From positions 18,867 to 82,866 of IMG/VR virus record IMGVR_UViG_3300037827_000415: a DNA stretch of 64,000 nt; one strand, 5' to 3'. Origin of the DNA: a virus. Both the position numbers and the translations under genes were made by a program. Shown in pieces: positions 12,885 through 13,002 of the stretch. Under the pieces are notes generated by a model. That model made no database searches, was not told the origin of the DNA, and saw only the letters and a list, made by a program, of their open reading frames with translations. How positions within the stretch are numbered: position 1 is the stretch's first letter; every line of letters starts with the position of its first letter.

Positions 12885-13002
12885 AGTGCGGTAAAAAACC
12901 GCGTTTGATTCTGAGCGAAAGTCGAAAGGTCAACACGCTTGAGGCGTTCCCGAGCCTCAGGCGTGCCTTTACGTCTTGGCTCGGGATTGAACGCGGTTTT
13001 TT
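12885..13002 (+). ncRNA. Pseudoknot-forming structured RNA, attenuator-like leader of the tRNA
   Basis: A perfect 13-bp outer stem (12893-12905 with 12990-13002) ends in six T, like a terminator. Inside, a 12-bp hairpin (12934-12945 with 12954-12965, one G-U) carries loop GTTCCCGA. TCCCGA of this loop can pair with TCGGGA at 12981-12986, giving a pseudoknot. A short 5' hairpin (12888-12902, GCGGT/ACCGC) competes with the outer stem. These features resemble a switch or attenuator ahead of the tRNA. The fold is by eye; no known RNA family recognised. Confidence 0.6.

Follow-up and report, generated by a model that had tools for sequence, protein, structure and literature searches.

The order of a leader hairpin followed by a tRNA whose body and anticodon do not match recurs beside IS1595-family transposases in several phyla, and the RNA studied here is one instance of it. 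It lies in a 64,000-nt stretch of DNA (the window), which is part of a virus record of 82,866 bp. In our preferred reading, to which we give about an even chance, the feature is the structured leader of a transposon-borne missense-type tRNA, with the leader gating either transcription or maturation.

Leader and tRNA are cargo of a mobile element (Table 1) flanked by phage-type genes (SNF2-like and DnaB-like helicases). The element has the hallmarks of the IS1595 family, namely a zinc ribbon plus ISXO2-like DDE transposase, TIRs and an 8-bp TSD, and its transposase matches PF12762 (7.7e-33), PF12760 (3.4e-10) and NF033547 (6.2e-53, above the cut-off). Element ends of the TATACTTGACAA type are common to most of the related loci. 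The cargo is ordered as 107-aa and 55-aa ORFs on the minus strand, leader RNA and tRNA on the plus strand, and a 156-aa ORF. No second copy of the element was found across the 82.9-kb contig, and a search of annotated phages for a similar RNA-plus-tRNA stretch returned short tRNA matches only.

Table 1. Features of the IS1595-family element and its surroundings, in window coordinates
Feature	Position	Strand	Remarks
TSD, left copy	12083-12090	.	8 bp, AATTTTTT; identical to 14793-14800
IS1595-family transposon	12091-14792		2.7 kb; TIRs, 8-bp TSD, transposase
Left TIR	12091-12116	+	28-nt inverted repeat, 96% complementary to 14767-14794
107-aa cargo ORF	12290-12613	-	GIY-YIG-like by eye, compared with the 107-aa ORF of L079
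55-aa cargo ORF	12626-12793	-	Lys-rich tail (ISLHPLxFxxALxxFLxV...KKKK)
Possible promoter	12850-12878	+	TTGACG-17-TAGGCT; weak, 8/12 matches, under promoter-scan threshold
Transient 5' hairpin	12888-12902	+	GCGGT-AAAAA-ACCGC; -6.1 kcal/mol, from growing-transcript folding
Leader rod	12893-13002	+	110 nt; 24-bp closing stem ending in T6; inner hairpin 12934-12965
tRNA, Leu-type body, anticodon UGG (Pro)	13040-13139	+	Rfam RF00005, 60 bits against a gathering score of 29
Perfect 12-bp hairpin	13157-13187	+	inverted repeat after the tRNA; may mark the 3' end of the leader-tRNA unit
156-aa cargo ORF	13280-13750	+	Cys-rich N-terminus, C-terminal hydrophobic segment
IS1595-family transposase	13757-14752	-	convergent with the tRNA
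Right TIR	14767-14792	+	inverted repeat
TSD, right copy	14793-14800	.	AATTTTTT

The tRNA joins a Leu-type body to a proline anticodon, an oddity that the initial annotation of this DNA did not mention. By the usual body identity rules, which we take from general knowledge, its D-arm (GTGGCGGAATTGGTAGACGC), long variable arm, G1-C72 pair and A73 are Leu-type features, the anticodon loop reads C-U-UGG-A-A, and CCA is not encoded; the pairing of a Leu-type body with UGG is the mismatch that characterizes a missense-type tRNA. With default settings ARAGORN makes zero tRNA calls in the window, missing this gene because of the long variable arm, and it finds a tRNA-Pro(tgg) only when 17 nt of that arm are taken as an intron; a relaxed score gave noise only. 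LeuRS and SerRS recognize their tRNAs independently of the anticodon, so the window tRNA is expected to carry Leu.

The leader is exceptionally structured. The 118-nt fold has an MFE of -67.8 kcal/mol, compared with -36.1 ± 3.7 in dinucleotide shuffles (z = -8.67; 0/200 shuffles as low), and forms a rod closed by 24 uninterrupted pairs (4 G-U), in which 12893-12916 pair with a 3' arm that ends at 13002, followed by short stems and an inner 12-bp hairpin (12934-12945/12954-12965) that carries the loop GTTCCCGA at 12946-12953. The initial annotation had described a structured RNA in a promoter-leader-tRNA layout within an IS1595 element, which fold and element both support. On rechecking, all of its stems, loops, distances and coordinates proved correct, including a 13-bp stem (12893-12905/12990-13002) ending in T6, the TCGGGA at 12981-12986 and a tRNA start (13040) 37 nt past the leader; the full 24-pair extent of the closing stem was absent from its account, and the promoter that it noted is weak, under the threshold of the scan.

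From these elements it had proposed a riboswitch or attenuator, in which alternative stems and a pseudoknot control the tRNA; such a switch, or a T-box-like one, we now consider quite improbable. The overlap of the 5' hairpin with the rod and the T6 tract are real, the TCCCGA/TCGGGA match between loop and flank is mildly unusual when taken alone (2% of loop shuffles; rarer than the other 98%), and the leaders of two relatives, L079 and L080, contain a Shine-Dalgarno sequence and a short ORF, as leader-peptide attenuators do. However, at -67.6 kcal/mol the rod is ∼31 kcal/mol ahead of the two stems first proposed when these are folded alone (-36.3 kcal/mol). In growing transcripts the 5' hairpin holds to about 12993-12994 and is replaced by the rod thereafter, losing once the 3' arm has been made; according to these folding predictions a brief competition between the two is real and a balanced switch is not. 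TCGGGA is predicted to be unavailable for a pseudoknot because the 24-pair closing stem consumes it, and relatives do not share the pairing: a comparison with 12 further leader hairpins found it no more often than expected by chance, the window alone standing out of the 13. No Rfam riboswitch or T-box model matches 12800-13250 at E up to 10, none reaches its gathering score anywhere in the window, and the riboswitch reading is not supported. As to a terminator or attenuator, T6 is present in the window, though paired with A6; a T-run is absent after the hairpin in most relatives, so that an attenuator-terminator would at best be specific to the window copy. A terminator scan, which takes loops of 3-8 nt only, called none at the leader.

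We collected ∼245 IS1595 loci, a sample of such elements gathered as transposase relatives from viral and genome collections, and scanned them for tRNAs using ARAGORN and a script requiring acceptor, T-arm and D-arm features. From 576 kb surrounding 150-odd transposases this script picked out 22 candidates, whereas shuffled sequence yielded none. Altogether 26 tRNAs lie inside or near IS1595 elements, most with unexpected anticodons. An NGG (Pro) anticodon is found in 16 of them (the window, L006, L079, L080, L087, L089, L091, L096, L221, L226, L258, L267, L285, L297, L302 and L303), on Leu-type, Ser-type or short bodies; judged by eye, most bodies are Leu-type with A73, that of L267 looks Ser-type with G73, and that of L096 has a short variable arm. 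The remaining anticodons, which in some loci read UAA, Ala or Ser codons, comprise UUA (L057, L306) and UGC (L304), both with Leu-type bodies, GCU with short bodies (L091, L279), ACC (L057) and GGA (L174), and the loops of L128, L136 and L156 are ambiguous. The two UUA tRNAs (L057 5623-5705 and L306 2746-2830), near IS1595 transposases, would read the stop codon UAA. In L091 two odd tRNAs, a class II UGG and a short GCU, sit near a single transposase (1402-1476 and 142-229).

Linkage to the element varies in closeness. The tRNA lies between both TIRs in the window, L006, L057, L080, L128 and L136, less surely so in L079, L096 and L156, and merely near the element in L091, L226, L302 and L304. 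Searching IMG/VR directly for a Leu-type D-arm combined with NGG gave 12 stretches, several of which adjoin IS1595 transposases and several of which do not, and similar tRNAs occur in L208 and L244 with no obvious leader hairpin and no detected IS1595 transposase. A Planctomycetota genome without IS1595 (L260) also holds a Leu-type UGG tRNA (1494-1580), flanked on one side by an XRE/ImmA-like gene and on the other by a small GDWEDAVSKALNKKKP ORF, and a similar ORF is found near L226. Scanning genomes with the tRNA pattern yielded a single genome among 392 Planctomycetota and another among 387 Verrucomicrobiota, the latter an IS1595 copy; tRNAs with Leu-type bodies and NGG are therefore rare, and IS1595 elements account for a sizeable share of them. 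Carriers belong to Planctomycetota, Verrucomicrobiota, Chloroflexota, Acidobacteriota and Fibrobacterota, and also include viruses.

A GC-rich stem stands directly upstream of the tRNA in nearly all IS1595-linked cases. Stem scores of at least 10 were obtained for 17/26 IS1595-linked tRNAs and 7/32 other tRNAs of the same loci (Fisher p = 9e-4; the window leader needed 150 nt upstream rather than 100), a test that is conservative because some of the 32 controls are of the same class or duplicates; at random positions 9.6% score as high. An independent comparison of MFE in 18 leaders gives the same answer (p = 8e-4). The hairpins have no common sequence and, apart from those of L079/L080, defy sequence alignment. 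Between L079 and L080 the tRNAs differ at one site, two base pairs of the leader hairpin have changed from G-C to A-U in a compensatory way (in this single pair of sequences) and the sequence further upstream has diverged. In these two loci the Shine-Dalgarno sequence (AAGGAGG) and an ORF of 21 codons (MLRRSLRSIAENGLSSNSNRA in L079) lie ∼120 nt upstream of the tRNA; they overlap a hairpin of the leader and are kept in both. Since a hairpin leader recurs before such tRNAs, it is still reasonable to suppose, as suggested earlier, that the output of tRNA could be under control. The same recurrence, and the conservation of hairpin and tRNA as one block in L079/L080, make it very improbable that the rod, for all its stability and self-contained fold, is a stand-alone structured ncRNA unrelated to the tRNA.

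Position and transcription of the hairpins bear on a further explanation, in which the hairpin is an insulator or terminator that shuts outside transcription out of the transposon and the tRNA is neutral, hitch-hiking cargo. A symmetric A6...T6 rod could indeed stop transcription from both sides, and the hairpin follows a co-directional gene in L221, L258, L260 and L302. The upstream gene of the window, however, is divergent. In L267 a promoter (TTGACA-18-TATATT) stands directly upstream of the hairpin, which argues that the hairpin is transcribed, and there is no room for a promoter between hairpin and tRNA. As the same odd anticodon is also carried repeatedly, unlike neutral cargo, we think an insulator rather unlikely.

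The history of the trait is less simple than it first appeared. In a tree of 166 transposases all 10 rows with a Pro-tRNA fell in one 24-row clade (SH-aLRT 99; 0/500 shuffles), but the view that all Pro-tRNAs belong to one clade was weakened once more rows were added: an 81-row tree with the new carriers has 12 label changes, at least 7 of them forced by supported branches (shuffled mean 14.0), and the trait is patchy. This patchiness suggests that the same odd anticodon was gained more than once or has been retained, and its presence on different bodies is a sign that the anticodon itself is under selection. The carriers' transposases show no avoidance of CCA codons (43/171 Pro codons, compared with 42/215 in non-carriers) and so give no sign of the element adapting to misreading.

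If the bodies predict charging correctly, LeuRS and SerRS would charge the mismatched tRNAs with Leu or Ser, and the wrong residue would be inserted at Pro (CCN) codons, making these tRNAs missense-type, that is mistranslating. The leader hairpin would hold tRNA output low or conditional by one of two routes. Transcription could pause or terminate before the tRNA, which is plausible in the window with its T6, or the hairpin could hinder RNase P on the precursor, a route that we propose because the distance from hairpin to tRNA, while varying from 3 to 37 nt, usually places the end of the hairpin a few to ∼20 nt from the mature 5' end.

The main rival to this missense reading is a decoy or replacement tRNA, supplied by the element or its phage host, with an anticodon loop that would withstand or sequester anticodon nucleases such as VapC-type PIN toxins; its body would be irrelevant. 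Phage tRNAs with changed anticodon loops provide a precedent, having been proposed to evade VapC, PrrC and colicins (PMC10264068; PMC11555353). The anticodon is shared here while the body varies, and the cargo of two tRNA-less relatives (L078, L081) resembles PIN-type toxin and DUF433-type antitoxin ORFs, as judged by eye. However, the carriers are transposons, mostly chromosomal, anticodons other than NGG occur too, and a replacement would be expected to retain a body that fits its anticodon, so that decoding is restored, whereas these are mismatched; we therefore hold a decoy to be unlikely.

Among the protein-coding cargo, the 107-aa ORF has tblastn relatives in the IS1595 loci L015, L084 and L135, the catalytic motif residues of the window copy look degenerate by eye, and neither this ORF nor the 55-aa Lys-tail protein matches Pfam or NCBIfam. 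Small Lys-tail proteins of 40-80 aa with a SLHPLxFxxALxxFLxVKP-like motif were seen in L006, L079, L081, L087, L096, L104 and L267, in IS1595 cargo whether or not a tRNA is present, and in L079 one adjoins a GIY-YIG-like 107-aa ORF (6234-6557). The 156-aa ORF has no significant Pfam or NCBIfam family and no tblastn relative in the IS1595 loci.

A bolder form of the missense reading, which we offer tentatively and rate as somewhat doubtful, is that a clade of IS1595 elements is equipped with a module dedicated to mistranslation, in which a hairpin-gated tRNA, repeatedly acquired on different bodies, would place Leu or Ser at Pro codons (in other elements reading UAA, Ala or Ser codons) and, together with the Lys-tailed protein, might serve toxin-like addiction, defence or transposition control. 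If the tRNAs are expressed and receive the amino acid that their bodies predict, transposons would be spreading genes for the misreading of proline codons across phyla. This would be unexpected cargo for small insertion sequences, would link mobile DNA to the fidelity of the genetic code and would make the leader hairpin a control point. Standard tRNA finders overlook such genes, as the default ARAGORN run on the window illustrates.

Our literature search found nothing on tRNA cargo of IS1595 elements or on transposon-encoded mismatched tRNAs, which is weak evidence of novelty as subscription journals were poorly covered. The element itself resembles IS1595-family (ISXO2-like) elements with passenger genes, sharing their transposase domains, TIRs, 8-bp TSD and placement of cargo beside the transposase, to which the cargo described here adds a tRNA that is preceded by a hairpin and bears a mismatched anticodon. 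T-box riboswitches and leader-peptide attenuators likewise have a structured leader with alternative hairpins and a tRNA nearby, but they sense tRNA in order to control protein genes, whereas the gene behind this leader is itself a tRNA and no T-box sequence features were found. Mukai, Soell and co-workers reportedly described (NAR 2017) bacterial missense and nonsense suppressor tRNAs and allo-tRNAs, also from Acidobacteria, in which the anticodon mismatches the synthetase identity. The tRNAs in our survey are similarly mismatched bacterial tRNAs and include the UAA-reading type (L057, L306), yet in contrast to allo-tRNAs they have the usual 7/5 split of acceptor and T-stem, mostly a Pro anticodon, linkage to IS1595 and a leader hairpin. 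Finally, they share with phage tRNAs of altered anticodon loop (PMC10264068) their location on mobile DNA and a changed loop; in those phage tRNAs, however, the anticodon is kept and matches the body, while here body and anticodon disagree and the carrier is a transposon.
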